From a virus: a stretch of DNA of 24,739 bases. The stretch is from positions 1 through 24,739 of IMG/VR virus record IMGVR_UViG_3300017528_000164; one strand, 5' to 3'. Under the pieces are notes generated by a model, which did no database searches, was not told the origin of the DNA, and worked only from the letters and a program-made list of their open reading frames with translations. Positions 1 through 24,192 of this stretch are shown here, in pieces (the first letter of the stretch is position 1; each line of letters starts with the position of its first letter). The translations under genes and the position numbers were made by a program.

Positions 1-149
1 ATTACATCTTCGTATTCGTACTCAAACGTATGCGTGCCCACCTTTGTCCACTGTGGGCCTTTGCCCTTCCTTCTCCATTGATAGACAGCCCAGATCGTGA
101 CCCCTGCCATCGCCGCTACTTGTTTGGACGTTAGTTTTATATTTTGCAT
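1..149 (-). CDS. Helix-turn-helix DNA-binding protein (AlpA/MerR-like), partial
   Basis: The gene reads leftwards from an ATG at 149-147 and is still open at the window edge, so only 49 residues are visible. Residues 6-27 (LTSKQVAAMAGVTIWAVYQW) look like the helix-turn-helix of the HTH_17/AlpA/excisionase/MerR class. They are followed by a basic turn and a short beta-wing-like stretch ending in EYEYEDV, where family members usually have a 'G..R.Y...DL' wing. Such proteins are small DNA-binding regulators or excisionases. It is divergent from the virion operon and lies next to the 16-bp repeat array, so it may regulate this control region; that is inference. No good Shine-Dalgarno is seen. A weak minus-strand -10-like TACAAT lies at 197-192. 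Transcription regulator and excisionase cannot be told apart from this fragment. Confidence 0.65.
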   Translation of the reverse strand, partial: MQNIKLTSKQVAAMAGVTIWAVYQWRRKGKGPQWTKVGTHTFEYEYEDV

Positions 150-207: not shown

Positions 208-261
208 CCTATGGAAGAGCTTTCCTATGGATGATCTTCCATAGGAAAGCTCTTCCATAGG
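208..261. repeat. Perfect inverted repeat, 24-bp arms
   Basis: Bases 208-231 are the exact reverse complement of 238-261, separated by the 6-base spacer TGATCT. The left arm is an inverted copy of the 16-bp unit that is then repeated head-to-tail on the right. A very stable cruciform or RNA hairpin could form. There is no T-run directly after it, so it does not look like a simple terminator. It overlaps the first two copies of the tandem array. Confidence 0.95.
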
Positions 262-314
262 AAAGCTCTTCCATAGGAAAGCTCTTCCATAGGAAAGCTC
301 TTCCATAGGAAAGC
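235..314. repeat. Five perfect tandem copies of a 16-bp unit (iteron-like)
   Basis: The unit TCTTCCATAGGAAAGC occurs at 235-250, 251-266, 267-282, 283-298 and 299-314 without a mismatch and without spacers. Each unit carries the arms TTCC-ATA-GGAA, and unit junctions give GGAA-AGCTC-TTCC, so every period offers dyad-symmetric sites that a dimeric DNA-binding protein could use. Perfect identity points to recent expansion or selection for spacing (16 bp is about one and a half helical turns). Candidate roles are operators for the adjacent HTH protein, iterons of a replication origin, or a selfish repeat; the sequence does not decide. The 16-base period makes any translation of this stretch repetitive and not evidence of a gene. 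Confidence 0.95.
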
Positions 315-590
315 TCCCTCTTTAGGACAGTTTTGGTTAGCACCAGGCACCTTCAGGCCTAGCTCTTCTCCAGCTCCTAGAGATCCAAAGGGTTGCCGCG
401 ATTGTTTCCAATGTTTCGCTTGGCAGCCGTAAGATAGCATCAGCCAGGCCCTTGCGTTCTACAGCAGCAGTGCTTACAATAGCAGTTACCAGCTTGGTGA
501 CCGGCAAGGCTAGCATGAAGGGCTAGGTACTCGGTTATCAGGCTGGCCTGGTTACTCCTAGATACGAGTGTGAAAGCTACAACACACGGA

Positions 591-628
591 AGAGCCCAGA
601 GTCGTCAGACAGCTCTGGGCTCTTTTCT
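591..628 (+). terminator. Intrinsic terminator before the virion operon
   Basis: An 11-bp perfect stem, AGAGCCCAGAG (591-601) with CTCTGGGCTCT (613-623), has an 11-base loop and is followed by TTTTCTAT. This is a classic rho-independent terminator for rightward transcription. It insulates the promoter at 649-657 from upstream reading. The transcript it ends is not identified. Confidence 0.85.
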
Positions 629-657
629 ATTATATTACCACAAAGGTATGATATAAT
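629..657 (+). promoter_or_regulatory. Extended -10 promoter for the virion operon
   Basis: TG at 649-650, one base, then a perfect TATAAT at 652-657 form a full extended -10 element. The -35 position (629-634, ATTATA) is weak, as is usual for extended -10 promoters. Transcription would start near 664, giving a leader of about 30 bases before the ATG at 693. The same TGnTATAnT pattern recurs at 2745-2753 and 19207-19215. Confidence 0.7.
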
Positions 658-4870: not shown

Positions 4871-5371
4871 ATGCCAGAAGTAAAAGCTTATATTAGATTC
4901 TTAGATAAAGTAAAAGTCCTAGACACATTCGGTTGCTGGGAGTGGACTGGTGCGAGACTAGGCGCACGGTTGGGCGAAGTAGCAAATCCAGGAACTGGTC
5001 ACGGCTACTTCCGCTATGCAGACGGTTCTGTATTAGCGCACCGTTGGAGCTGGGAGCACATTGGCGGCAACGCGCCACCAGGCGATCTCTGTGTGTTGCA
5101 TAAGTGTGACAATCCAAAGTGCGTCAATCCCGATCATCTATTTCTTGGCACTAGGGCGGACAACTCAGCTGACATGGTTAGCAAGGGTCGTGCGGCGAAG
5201 AAGCTAACTGAAGCTCAGGCCAGAGAAATAATCGCACTTCGTGCCACTGGACTTACCTTAAAGGAAGTCGCGGCCAAATTTAACATTGACCTATCAATGG
5301 TGTCCTACATTTGCAAAGGCAAATGTTGGAAGAACGCAGCAACAGCCGCACAAAAAGAGGAAGCAACATAA
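4871..5371 (+). CDS. HNH homing-type endonuclease
   Basis: 166 residues. The N-terminal part has the HNH_3 pattern: CWEWTG (C22), GYFRY, AHR (H57), then LHKCDNPKCVNPDHLFLGT with H77, C79, C84, N86 and H89 as catalytic and zinc-site residues, followed by DN..DMVSKGR. Residues 112-153 (EAQAREIIALRATGLTLKEV, then FNIDLSMVSYICKGKCW) form a helix-turn-helix of the kind that recognises the target site. Such free-standing nucleases cut uninvaded alleles and spread by repair. It sits between portal and scaffold, two genes normally adjacent, and its first 60 bases are clearly richer in A/T than its neighbours, which supports insertion. All key residues are present, so it looks intact. Confidence 0.92.
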   Translation: MPEVKAYIRFLDKVKVLDTFGCWEWTGARLGARLGEVANPGTGHGYFRYADGSVLAHRWSWEHIGGNAPPGDLCVLHKCDNPKCVNPDHLFLGTRADNSADMVSKGRAAKKLTEAQAREIIALRATGLTLKEVAAKFNIDLSMVSYICKGKCWKNAATAAQKEEAT

Positions 5372-19719: not shown

Positions 19720-22700
19720 ATGGGATTTTCACGTAGATTTGGCACGCGAGGTGGGCGCAGAGGTTCTGTTGTTGCCAGGGTTGGCGCTCCAGTAGCCCCA
19801 GAGGTTCCTGTCTTTGACCTGCTTCCTAACTATTGGTACCGAGCTGACAACGTCACTCTTAATGCAGGCACAGTTGCGACCATTCCAAACAAAGTAGGGA
19901 CAGACGCGCTTGTCAATCAAGGCGCAACTCTACCCCTTCCTGTTCAAGATCCGCTGTTCCTCGATAAGCCTTCTATTCTGTTCTCTGGAACTCAGTACTT
20001 AGACAGCAACCTGTCAGCTGCCTCTTGGGCGTTCATGTCCGATGGCACCGGGTTTGAGGCGTTCCACGTCTTTGCGCCTACCAACACATCAGCCGACACG
20101 TTTATCATATCGGCTACTCTCTCCCAAGGTAGCCCCGGTTCCCAGCAGGCGTGTTATGTAGGTGGTTCAACTGATTTCCTTGTGAAAAACTCTGCAGCTC
20201 AGTCAGTAGTTCTATTTACTTCTTCGGCAGGAGTACTCAGTACCAACTCTCCTACGTATATAAATGGATACTACAAATCTACGTCTCCTGTGAAGGCTGC
20301 ATTTTTCGTTAAGGAAGCAGTGGTGGGCTCAGCCGTAGCGGAGGGGACACCGAGTGCTACCGGTAATACCACATTTTGCCTCGGCGCACGTTCCGGCGAT
20401 AGAGCTGTGCCAGCTAAAATGCGCTGGTGCGATACGATCATATTCAACCGTGCACTCTCAGAGTATGAGCGGCAAGTAGTGCGCACCTACATCCAGAAGC
20501 GTTATGGTATAGCCGCTCCAGTCGTCACCCCAGCTGAAGGCACCGTTCTTAAGCTCAAGCCACGCAACTGGATACGTGCTCAAGAGAGCGTCGACTCTGC
20601 TGGCTTCGCTACTGCATTCAATGACAAGGCCATGCCTGGCCACCAGCTAGTGCAAGGTACCCCAGCACTTCAGTTGTTTTCTCCTGTACCAGACCCTCTG
20701 TTCAACAACAAGCCAACCCTAAACTTCCAGGGTGGCGGTCAGATGTATGACTCTACTCTACCTCCATCGGCATGGCAGTTCTTGCACGATGGTACCGGCG
20801 CAGAGCTCTTCTTCGTGGCGACCTTAACGGCAAACTCATCTGTAACTGTTTCCCTAACTACCCGCGTAGGCGGAAACGGTATTACAATAATACACGCTAA
20901 TACGTCTACCTCACCTTTTCTCTATCTGCAGAGTGGTCCTGGTAGCGTCCAAGCTAGCTCAGCCACTGGCACTGGCGTATGGCCTCTAAACACAGGCACA
21001 TACATCTCACATTCTATTAAGAGTTCTGCACCATTTCCTATCACACAGTGGAACGAGAGCTCTGTTGGACTGGCCATGCAGCCAGCCGCTCCATTCGTCA
21101 CCGGGTTAGATGCTGAAATAGCTCTGCGTCTAGGTTATGCCGCCTCAAATGCTCCACGCATGAAGTGGGCTGAGGTTCTGATCTTCAACAGAGCTCTAAC
21201 CGAGATAGAGCGCCAGACAGTCAGAGAATACATCCAGGACCGCTACGCCATCCTAGCGCCTACGATAAATGCCAATGATCGCCCAGTGCTGGAGCTCCAG
21301 CCGCGCAACTGGTTCCGTGCCTCTAACTTCACAACAGCTGGAGCGAACGTAGCCAGCTTTTATGACAAGGCACAGCCAGGTCACGTGTTGGCACAGGCTA
21401 CACCAGCCAACCAGGTTGTTGCTCCGTTATCTGATCCTCTTTTTACTAACAAGCTCAGCGCCAACTTCACAGGCGCACAGATGTACGATAGTAATGCTAC
21501 CGCTTCAGCGTGGAAGTTTCTGCACGATGGCACCGGGATGGAAGTTTTCCACGTCCTTGCTGGTACTTCAGCTACGCTAGGCGTAGTTATTGCAACACTA
21601 GCCCCGTCTAGTCCTGGAATGCAACATTATCTTGTTGGAGATGGTGCGTATACTTTTCAGGTAAACGGATCAATTGCAATAGCCGACCTGAGAGCAGCCA
21701 ATACGGCGGCTCCAGTAGGTGTAGCTACCTATATCGATTCTTACTTACGGTCGTCTCAGTTTCCGCCTGCTGCAGTTGCGTTTGACCACCATGCAGTCTC
21801 TGCAAGCCATATGACTCTTGCAGGCGCACCCGTTACAGGAGACCCAGCAGGGCCTTTGCGTCTCGGAAACCAGGCTGGTGCTTCACCAGCTTTTCCGGCA
21901 AACATGAAATGGTGTGAGACTCTCATCTTCAATCGTGTCCTAACTGAGTACGAGCGCCAGACTGTTCGCGAGTATATCCAGGCGCAATATGGAATAGCTG
22001 CTCCTGTCATAAGCTCCCCAGACCGGGCCATCCTAAAGCTTAATCCACGCAACTGGTTACGAGCTGACTCAGCCACTGTTGTTGCTGGCAAGGTGACTGC
22101 TCTTTTAGACAAGGCCATGCCTGGGGCAACAGTGGCTCAAGCGACGACTGCTAGCCAGGCATCGCTAACCACAGACCCAGCTCAGGGAAATCAGCCAGTA
22201 CTTGTGTTCGATGGCGTAGACGACTTCTACGACTCCAATTTGCCATCTTCAGCCTGGACGTTCCTGCACAATGGTCTAGGGATGTATTGTGCCCACAAGT
22301 ACAAGCTTAATGGTATATCTGGCGTCCAGCTACTACAGCGCACTACTGCTAACGCCAATGTGGCAGGTCATGCTCTCTTAGCTGTTGCTAGCGGTTTTAC
22401 AAGCGTTCAAGTGTTCGCAGCAGCAGGCACTGTCATAATTCCTACAGGTTCAGCTAGTTCTACGTTGCCCATGGTGCTGGCTAGTTCCTTTTCGCTGGCG
22501 GATACTCCTGACGCTCGTCTAATCGAAAACGGAGTCACAGTAGCTACTTCAAATGTAAGTGTAGCTCCAGGCACAGGAGCGCCACAGTTTACCTTGCGCC
22601 TGGGAGCAGGTGGTAACTCATCCCCAGCCAGCAACTTTTTGAACGCAGCGTGGTATGAGGCTATTCTCTTTGATCGCGTACTAAACGCAGCAGAAGAGAA

Positions 22701-24192
22701 GATCCTCTCCCAGTACTACACTGACAGGTACGCGCCACCAGCAGTTGATAAGCCTATATTTGACCTGCAACCATTCTCTTGGTTTAGAGCAGACACTTAC
22801 AATACTACAGGTGCCGTAGTCACTGCTTTCCGTGACAGGGCCATGCCAGGTCATTTGCTCTCAGCTGGCGGTACACAGGTACTTAACCCTGTTGCCGATC
22901 CTCTCTTTGCTGGCAAACCTACGGCTGACTTCAACAGCACTCCTAGCACGAACTTTTACGACTCTTCCCTGCCACCATCGGCGTGGAAGTTTATCCACGA
23001 TGGTACTGGATGCGAGATCTTCACGGTCGCAACTGTTGCTACTACTGGGAGTAACCAGGTTGTTTGGTGTACTCGCACAGGTGGTTCCGCTGCTGGATGT
23101 TCGTTGGTGCGCGGTCCTAACACACAGGTTCAGACTATATTCATGCTTAATGACAGTGGTGCTATTGTAGCCGCTACTGGTGGTACGGTTCCGTGGTCAT
23201 CTACAGCTGGCACCTATCAGTCGTATGCATTCAAGAGCTCAGCTCCAATTCCAATTACATTGTGGGTAGAGGGTACTGCCGATATTGCTGTCCAGGTAGC
23301 TAGTGCTCCTGGTTCTGGAAATCCACAAAGTACGTTTAGGCTAGGCAATGACTCTGGCCAGCGTGCCACCATGAAGTGGGCTGAGGTTCTGATCTTCAAC
23401 CGCACCCTAACGGAGCTGGAGCGCCAGCAAGTTCGGGAATACATACAAGCTAGATACGGCATAGTGGCTCCAACGATCTCTAGCGAGGATAGGCAAATCC
23501 TAAGCCTCAGTCCCTTCTCATGGTCACGAGCAGACACATACACAACCGCTGGTGCTAACGTCGCTGGATTTACTGACAAGGCGTTGCCTGGCCATGCACT
23601 TGTGCAGGCAACGCCAGCGAGCCAAGTAGCTATATCTACGGTTGACGCGCTGTACAACAACAAGCCGTCTGCCAAGTTCATAGGTGCACAGTGGTACCAA
23701 AGCAATGTCTCCGCTTCAGCGTGGAAGTTCCTGCACGATGGCACTGGCTGTGAAGAGTTCACTGTCTACAGTTCACCTCTGCTAGGCACAGAAATTGTGT
23801 GGGCTACAGGTGACATTGGCCAGCGTGCACAGAGATTCTATAGTGCTCTAGGTGTCGTGTCTGCTTACGCGGCTGGATACAGTGCCTCTGGCGTCACCTC
23901 TGCTCCAGGCACTCAGACTCCCAATACCGCTTACTACGCTGGGTACGCATTAAAAGAAGGCACTTCGCCTGAGCTAGTGGCTTATTCCAAAGGCAACTCT
24001 TATGGCAGCATCGATGGAACCCCTTCTTTAGTAGCACCTGAAGGACCGTTCACGCTCGGTGCCAACTCTGCTGGCTTATACAATTCCACTATGAACTGGG
24101 TTGACACTATCCTGTTCAAGCGTGTCCTAACAGCTGCTGAACGGCTACAAGTCCGCCAATACATTCAGAACCGGTACGGAGTAGCACCTTAA
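19720..24192 (+). CDS. Giant tail fibre with six LamG/concanavalin-like repeats
   Basis: 1490 residues; AGGAAG at 19704-19709 supports the ATG. A basic leader (residues 1-22) is followed by six repeats of about 245 residues whose conserved Trp in the '[PNY]xWxRA' opening falls at residues 39, 284, 531, 779, 1021 and 1268. Each repeat runs through a 'DP[LA]F.NKP...F.G...YDS' strand pair, 'SAWKFLHDGTG', several beta strands, 'MKWAE.LIFNR.LTE.ER' and a closing helix 'VREYIQ.RYGI.AP'. This is the layout of LamG/concanavalin A-like lectin domains, which bind glycans. The repeats fill the protein, with no clear trimerisation or chaperone domain at either end. It probably recognises host surface polysaccharide. 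Repeat 4 is the most divergent. Whether it trimerises like ordinary fibres cannot be seen. Confidence 0.75.
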   Translation: MGFSRRFGTRGGRRGSVVARVGAPVAPEVPVFDLLPNYWYRADNVTLNAGTVATIPNKVGTDALVNQGATLPLPVQDPLFLDKPSILFSGTQYLDSNLSAASWAFMSDGTGFEAFHVFAPTNTSADTFIISATLSQGSPGSQQACYVGGSTDFLVKNSAAQSVVLFTSSAGVLSTNSPTYINGYYKSTSPVKAAFFVKEAVVGSAVAEGTPSATGNTTFCLGARSGDRAVPAKMRWCDTIIFNRALSEYERQVVRTYIQKRYGIAAPVVTPAEGTVLKLKPRNWIRAQESVDSAGFATAFNDKAMPGHQLVQGTPALQLFSPVPDPLFNNKPTLNFQGGGQMYDSTLPPSAWQFLHDGTGAELFFVATLTANSSVTVSLTTRVGGNGITIIHANTSTSPFLYLQSGPGSVQASSATGTGVWPLNTGTYISHSIKSSAPFPITQWNESSVGLAMQPAAPFVTGLDAEIALRLGYAASNAPRMKWAEVLIFNRALTEIERQTVREYIQDRYAILAPTINANDRPVLELQPRNWFRASNFTTAGANVASFYDKAQPGHVLAQATPANQVVAPLSDPLFTNKLSANFTGAQMYDSNATASAWKFLHDGTGMEVFHVLAGTSATLGVVIATLAPSSPGMQHYLVGDGAYTFQVNGSIAIADLRAANTAAPVGVATYIDSYLRSSQFPPAAVAFDHHAVSASHMTLAGAPVTGDPAGPLRLGNQAGASPAFPANMKWCETLIFNRVLTEYERQTVREYIQAQYGIAAPVISSPDRAILKLNPRNWLRADSATVVAGKVTALLDKAMPGATVAQATTASQASLTTDPAQGNQPVLVFDGVDDFYDSNLPSSAWTFLHNGLGMYCAHKYKLNGISGVQLLQRTTANANVAGHALLAVASGFTSVQVFAAAGTVIIPTGSASSTLPMVLASSFSLADTPDARLIENGVTVATSNVSVAPGTGAPQFTLRLGAGGNSSPASNFLNAAWYEAILFDRVLNAAEEKILSQYYTDRYAPPAVDKPIFDLQPFSWFRADTYNTTGAVVTAFRDRAMPGHLLSAGGTQVLNPVADPLFAGKPTADFNSTPSTNFYDSSLPPSAWKFIHDGTGCEIFTVATVATTGSNQVVWCTRTGGSAAGCSLVRGPNTQVQTIFMLNDSGAIVAATGGTVPWSSTAGTYQSYAFKSSAPIPITLWVEGTADIAVQVASAPGSGNPQSTFRLGNDSGQRATMKWAEVLIFNRTLTELERQQVREYIQARYGIVAPTISSEDRQILSLSPFSWSRADTYTTAGANVAGFTDKALPGHALVQATPASQVAISTVDALYNNKPSAKFIGAQWYQSNVSASAWKFLHDGTGCEEFTVYSSPLLGTEIVWATGDIGQRAQRFYSALGVVSAYAAGYSASGVTSAPGTQTPNTAYYAGYALKEGTSPELVAYSKGNSYGSIDGTPSLVAPEGPFTLGANSAGLYNSTMNWVDTILFKRVLTAAERLQVRQYIQNRYGVAP
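19810..24189 (+). repeat. Six ~735-bp protein-coding repeats
   Basis: Repeat openings (Trp codon) are at 19834, 20569, 21310, 22054, 22780 and 23521. Repeats 2 and 5 share 30 identical bases (21160-21189 and 23371-23400), while flanking sequence differs. Repeats 3 and 6 are near-identical over the SAWKFLHDGTG codons (from 21500 and 23711). This mosaic similarity suggests duplication followed by gene conversion or domain shuffling. Confidence 0.9.

Follow-up and report, generated by a model that had tools for sequence, protein, structure and literature searches.

A regular array of TTCC-N3-GGAA dyads beside an excisionase-like gene in a phage contig: a possible multi-site protein-binding element

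Gene content and setting of the locus

The virus record IMGVR_UViG_3300017528_000164 was analysed over its entire length of 24,739 bases, referred to here as the window. Close to its left end, a repeat element lies in a 543-bp gap (150-692) that holds no convincing gene. A small leftward gene for an HTH protein precedes the gap, and the first rightward ORF begins at 693. Among the genes that run rightward are those for a terminase small subunit (phrog_4102), a portal protein (phrog_156), an HNH endonuclease and a major head protein (phrog_14242). Together with the phrog_66 match of the HTH protein described below, these assignments bear out the setting given in a first-pass annotation of this DNA, namely a position between a leftward HTH gene and rightward virion genes. 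No repeat common to both ends of the window was found, and the record is therefore probably a fragment of a genome. The features that flank the element are as follows.

3-149, minus strand: small HTH gene, HTH_17/excisionase-like; the start codon ends at 149 and the 3' end is cut by the end of the contig
588-626, plus strand: hairpin with T-rich sequence behind it, possibly an intrinsic terminator of rightward transcription, located past the array and before the first rightward gene
649-657, plus strand: TG-N-TATAAT, resembling an extended -10 element, upstream of the rightward genes (best rightward score, 11.3)

The HTH gene runs leftward, away from the element, with its start codon approximately 50-60 bp distant, and 49 residues of its product are present before the contig ends. 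In PHROG the product matches phrog_66, “excisionase and transcriptional regulator” (E 1.5e-6), and in Pfam it matches HTH_17 below the cut-off (E 0.0013). The models matched are of the HTH_17/excisionase and MerR kinds, with none of the RHH or TubR kinds; NCBIfam HTH_BldC scored 13.8 bits against a cut-off of 77, with a query truncated at the contig end. Phage homologues found by tblastn are 63-73 aa long and are annotated as HTH, DNA-binding, MerR-family or hypothetical proteins. A PDB sequence search with the HTH protein gave nothing significant (best E 0.78, a phage repressor). An AlphaFold2 model built from the single truncated sequence was all-strand (pTM 0.44), in conflict with an HTH protein, and was discarded. 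No good promoter candidate for the HTH gene was found beside the array.

In the gap itself, a minus-strand ORF that covers the array (225-440) scores 0.069 bits per codon, as compared with a 5th percentile of 0.089 for coding and a 95th percentile of 0.101 for non-coding sequence. Neither this ORF nor a second one on the minus strand (337-516) has a PHROG match. The second ORF, of 59 codons, has a codon score between the coding and non-coding ranges and may be a real gene, in which case the array would lie between two leftward genes. A coding repeat is unlikely, since the 16-bp period of the array is not divisible by three.

To the right of the array, sequence from 317 to 586 shows no unusual RNA structure (z -1.4 and -0.2), and only the hairpin at 588-626 stands out before the first gene (585-640 folds at -25.6 kcal/mol; local z -3.8 for 541-660). 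A strict terminator scan did not list this hairpin and reported no terminator. The score of the -10-like sequence at 649-657 falls just below the 95th percentile of shuffled sequence (11.6) and is not significant alone. The first rightward ORF (693-1049), at -0.024 bits per codon, scores like non-coding sequence and has no family match; it may have been wrongly called or recently acquired.

Several other genes of the window deserve mention. A small protein encoded at 1046-1528 has a weak acetyltransferase (GNAT) match, and homologues are found upstream of the portal gene in the related loci L019 and L028. The terminase-small-like gene (2152-2964) sits before the portal gene, as it also does in the related locus L015. 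No terminase large subunit was recognised within the window. From reading of the sequence, an ORF of approximately 470-510 aa that looks terminase-large-like lies shortly before the portal gene in the distant relatives L017-L021 and L028, and another terminase-large-like ORF lies further upstream of it in L023; in the window and in L015 this place is taken by the terminase-small-like gene instead. The HNH endonuclease gene (4871-5371; phrog_59, E 2.7e-30) is located between the portal gene and the next gene; as the portal and following gene are only 34 bases apart in L015, it looks like a homing-type insertion. A 1490-aa protein (19720-24192) contains, from reading of the translation, about six similar repeats of some 240 residues, and matches phrog_4390, a family of unknown function.

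Architecture of the repeat element

The element (199-318) can be described as one unequal, imperfect palindrome, the right arm of which carries three extra units. Its parts are listed here.

199-318, no strand assigned: whole element, consisting of GGGAG, two degenerate inverted units, five direct units and CTCCC
208-231, plus strand: left arm of a 24-bp perfect inverted repeat
238-261, plus strand: right arm, the perfect reverse complement of the left arm
235-314, plus strand: tandem array of five exact 16-bp copies, found with TRF and by pattern search
206-311, no strand assigned: seven dyads TTCC-N3-GGAA, centred at 211, 227, 242, 258, 274, 290 and 306

The unit TCTTCCATAGGAAAGC occurs in five exact copies without gaps (235-250, 251-266, 267-282, 283-298 and 299-314); TRF extends the repeat to 235-316, with a period of 16, 5.1 copies and 100% matches. 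The five perfect, spacer-free copies and the 24-bp palindrome of the first-pass annotation are thus both present, the two arms of the latter being separated by a loop of 6 nt. That annotation also placed an inverted copy ahead of the array. Such a copy exists (219-234, minus strand) and has one mismatch; outside it lies a second, more degenerate inverted unit, and the left arm consists of parts of these two. Both sides share a flank, and in the predicted fold GGGAG (199-203) pairs with CTCCC (314-318). The left 36 nt and the right arm, taken here as the first and last copies plus the flank, differ at 5 of 36 positions. Four of the five mismatches are contiguous: in this block AAAG takes the place of CTTT, the sequence of the mirrored arm, and the two tetramers are reverse complements of each other.

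Each unit contains dyad symmetry, as had been proposed, in the form TTCC-N3-GGAA. The dyad is exact in all five direct copies (starting at 237, 253, 269, 285 and 301), and is recognisable in the inverted units with one mismatch (start at 222) and two mismatches (start at 206). The steps between successive dyad centres are 16, 15, 16, 16, 16 and 16 bp, and this spacing is kept across the flip in orientation at 232-237.

These features depart strongly from chance. The 16-bp unit with at most three mismatches is found 7 times in the window, as compared with a shuffle mean of 0.20. Exact dyads also number 7, five of them in the element (a mean of 0.22 and never more than 2 in shuffles). At periods of 10-40 the window matches itself over as many as 66 bases, versus at most 13 in 100 Markov shuffles, and its longest perfect hairpin has arms of 24 bp, versus 8-11 in 5 shuffles. 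Folding of the element as DNA gives z = -8.4. The even dyad step across the flip is the best hint of a bound protein, and could also be luck: by a rough estimate, a random palindrome centre would give a step within 1 of 16 with a chance of about 1/6 to 1/10.

Distribution of related sequences

Single occurrences of the 16-mer are found in 7 viral contigs. One of them (L003) also has a match with three mismatches 1.5 kb from the 16-mer, and there is none in the DNA examined of the other six. A relaxed dyad ladder of three steps retrieved 0 viral contigs. A pair of adjacent dyads, the 5-base linker being left free, gave a single match among genome contigs (84,980 species by the collection's description), at an unrelated place in a Lachnospiraceae assembly and with different linkers. 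When positions 190-325 were searched by blastn, 0 matches were obtained in phages and 0 in plasmids. No second array was found in viral contigs, genome contigs, phage records or plasmid records, collections that may omit records very near the window. The suggestion that the array is a host-derived mobile repeat found no support in these searches. No report of the array was found in the literature searched, and a search for the dyad core in two written forms returned, as judged by titles and the openings of abstracts, no paper on phage or bacterial gene regulation.

The phage itself is poorly represented. Among 50,697 phage records there was no match to the DNA of the whole window, nor to the head, portal and whole 1059-aa tail proteins as queries; the GNAT-like protein had no match in phage records either. 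In viral contigs no close relative was recovered with the head protein or portal as single queries, and a segment of the tail protein had no match. A portal segment retrieved one contig, L015, which is syntenic with the window (portal 45% and head protein 34% identical) and is the nearest relative. Its contig ends approximately 1 kb before its terminase-small-like gene, and the control region lies beyond it. A two-row portal alignment retrieved 17 loci, one of them L015's contig again, the other 16 being 23-31% identical in the best segment; a portal sub-alignment recovered only L015's contig.

Window DNA from 150 to 692 was compared with 15 of these records (L016, which is L015's contig, L027 and L030 being left out), and gave just 15-base matches, in 3 of the 15; among these relatives none covers the counterpart of the control region with useful similarity. 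The HTH protein had a match in 0 of the 15, many of which are fragments. No unit of at least 10 bp in at least four exact tandem copies was present in L015-L032 (18 loci on 17 contigs). In a distant relative, L029, a tandem repeat of 11/22 bp, degenerate and with A-rich repeats after it, is present at 1117-1237. Upstream of six homologues of the HTH protein, fetched from 237 matching records, neither a tandem array nor a hairpin arm longer than 8 bp was seen within 450 bp. These homologues are distant (E 6e-3 to 8), so that the comparison is a weak one and only shows that the array appears not to be a fixed companion of the HTH protein family.

Interpretation of the element

The dyads are regular, concentrated at one place and adjacent to a gene for a DNA-binding protein, and for these reasons the explanation best supported, which we hold tentatively and at somewhat less than even confidence, is a multi-site protein-binding ladder of the operator or iteron type in a divergent control region, with a binder that we infer from the sequence. 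The regularly repeated dyads, the intergenic position and the neighbouring regulator gene are what would be expected of operators of a divergent HTH gene. Among known systems, the parS sites of pSM19035 that are bound by omega, and centromeres of types Ib and III, are similar in having 7 to 10 iterons in direct and inverted orientation that overlap promoters and are bound by a small protein, and omega binds direct and inverted repeats comparably (available text of PMC5016525). They differ in that, for the element described here, no partner genes were recognised in the window and the adjoining gene is of another HTH class. A further likeness is to the filaments of BldC and the excisionases Xis, Cox and RdfS, small MerR-like HTH proteins that multimerise on DNA and regulate promoters or excision (available text of PMC5859096 and PMC11963761), the HTH protein of the window being a match to the excisionase family phrog_66. 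BldC sites, however, are described as asymmetric 9-bp direct repeats (PMC5859096, available text), whereas the spacing here is 16 bp and the dyads are symmetric. Judged by the features tested, this is not a BldC-type element: they are the period of 16, the dyad-symmetric cores and the HTH_BldC score below cut-off.

The main alternative, rather unlikely but still to be taken seriously, is that the element is a neutral or nearly neutral intergenic quasipalindrome, the arms of which were made or evened by template switching while the right arm grew by slippage to five copies. The arms share their terminal flank (GGGAG/CTCCC) and differ little, a template switch could produce a block such as AAAG/CTTT (mechanism in PMC8794818, available text), and the extra copies are confined to the right arm and identical, as after recent slippage. 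These observations are fitted equally well by the neutral reading, and the relatives examined show no comparable array. The identity of the copies, which had been taken to indicate recent expansion or strong constraint, may reflect recent slippage or constraint alike, since the control region is covered by no close relative. Against neutrality stand the continuation of the dyad spacing across the junction and the location in a likely control region; phage genomes, moreover, keep little spare DNA. An error of assembly, in the copy number or the inverted arm, is scarcely credible. The contig end is some 200 bp away, and short-read contigs err at repeats, but the array spans 80 bp and the whole element 120 bp, lengths that common reads exceed, and the arms are not a simple mirrored copy, as their sequences differ.

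Roles as operators, as an origin or as a packaging-related site had also been put forward for the array; operators and an iteron origin are both possible, while a packaging site is unsupported. A replication origin in which an initiator binds each dyad, in the lambdoid style, is nonetheless improbable. The lambdoid plan comprises four to six tandem iterons bound by the O protein, imperfect inverted repeats that can form hairpins (available text of PMC7466680), and the copy number and the tandem, individually symmetric units of the element agree with it. Lambdoid iterons, however, contain 19-bp imperfect inverted repeats and are located within the gene for the initiator, next to an AT-rich tract (PMC7466680, same text), whereas the units here are 16 bp and intergenic; no convincing gene lies over the array, and an initiator gene was not recognised anywhere in the window. 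No clearly AT-rich tract was apparent in the adjoining DNA (AT 0.68 at 120-159 and 0.60 at 160-199), and no change of sign in GC skew was marked beside the element. It is very unlikely that the element serves a plasmid-like prophage as a partition site (centromere) recognised by a small DNA-binding protein. Type Ib and III centromeres are direct repeats (in type Ib also inverted) upstream of their operon, and the small binder doubles as repressor (PMC5016525, available text); here, no motor-protein gene was recognised in the window, which ends inside the HTH gene and so short of any partner gene downstream of it, and the HTH protein matches no RHH or TubR model. We give just as little credence to an action at the level of RNA, by which a very stable transcript hairpin would stabilise, process or attenuate the message. 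Positions 195-325 do fold at -72.9 kcal/mol on the plus and -73.7 kcal/mol on the minus strand (local z -11.8 and -8.5 for 181-300), but such folding is expected from any palindrome. A T-run follows the hairpin on neither strand, the structure downstream (317-586) is unremarkable, and the palindrome reaches the gathering score of no Rfam family, most of its sub-threshold matches being to microRNA families.

If the element is indeed a protein-binding ladder, a DNA-binding protein, probably encoded by the phage, would occupy each TTCC-N3-GGAA dyad. Since seven dyads recur every 15-16 bp, cooperative loading is proposed, which would build a nucleoprotein array over approximately 110 bp. Adjacent sites would be about 1.5 helical turns apart, and alternate sites would thus lie on opposite faces of the helix. 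To a protein that binds such symmetric sites the flip at 232-237 would hardly matter, which would account for the spacing being kept across it. As the array starts approximately 50 bp from the start codon of the HTH gene, the simplest role would be control of this gene, perhaps autoregulation, and possibly of rightward transcription as well; the HTH protein itself is the candidate binder. We consider it quite unlikely that the mechanism goes as far as an excisionase-like HTH protein (or an unseen partner) that loads on a phage-specific ladder of seven steps, changing in written orientation but constant in step, as a nucleoprotein platform, with assembly spreading both ways from the point of reversal toward two divergent promoters and slippage tuning the switch by changing the number of steps.

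Significance

As a site, the element is probably of an ordinary kind; the phage that carries it is poorly sampled. Should it have arisen neutrally, it would be a clean example of a quasipalindrome enlarged via template switching and slippage. If instead the HTH protein binds the ladder, it would offer a control site that is compact and defined in sequence, in a phage group for which the head, portal and 1059-aa tail queries retrieved no relative among the 50,697 phage records.
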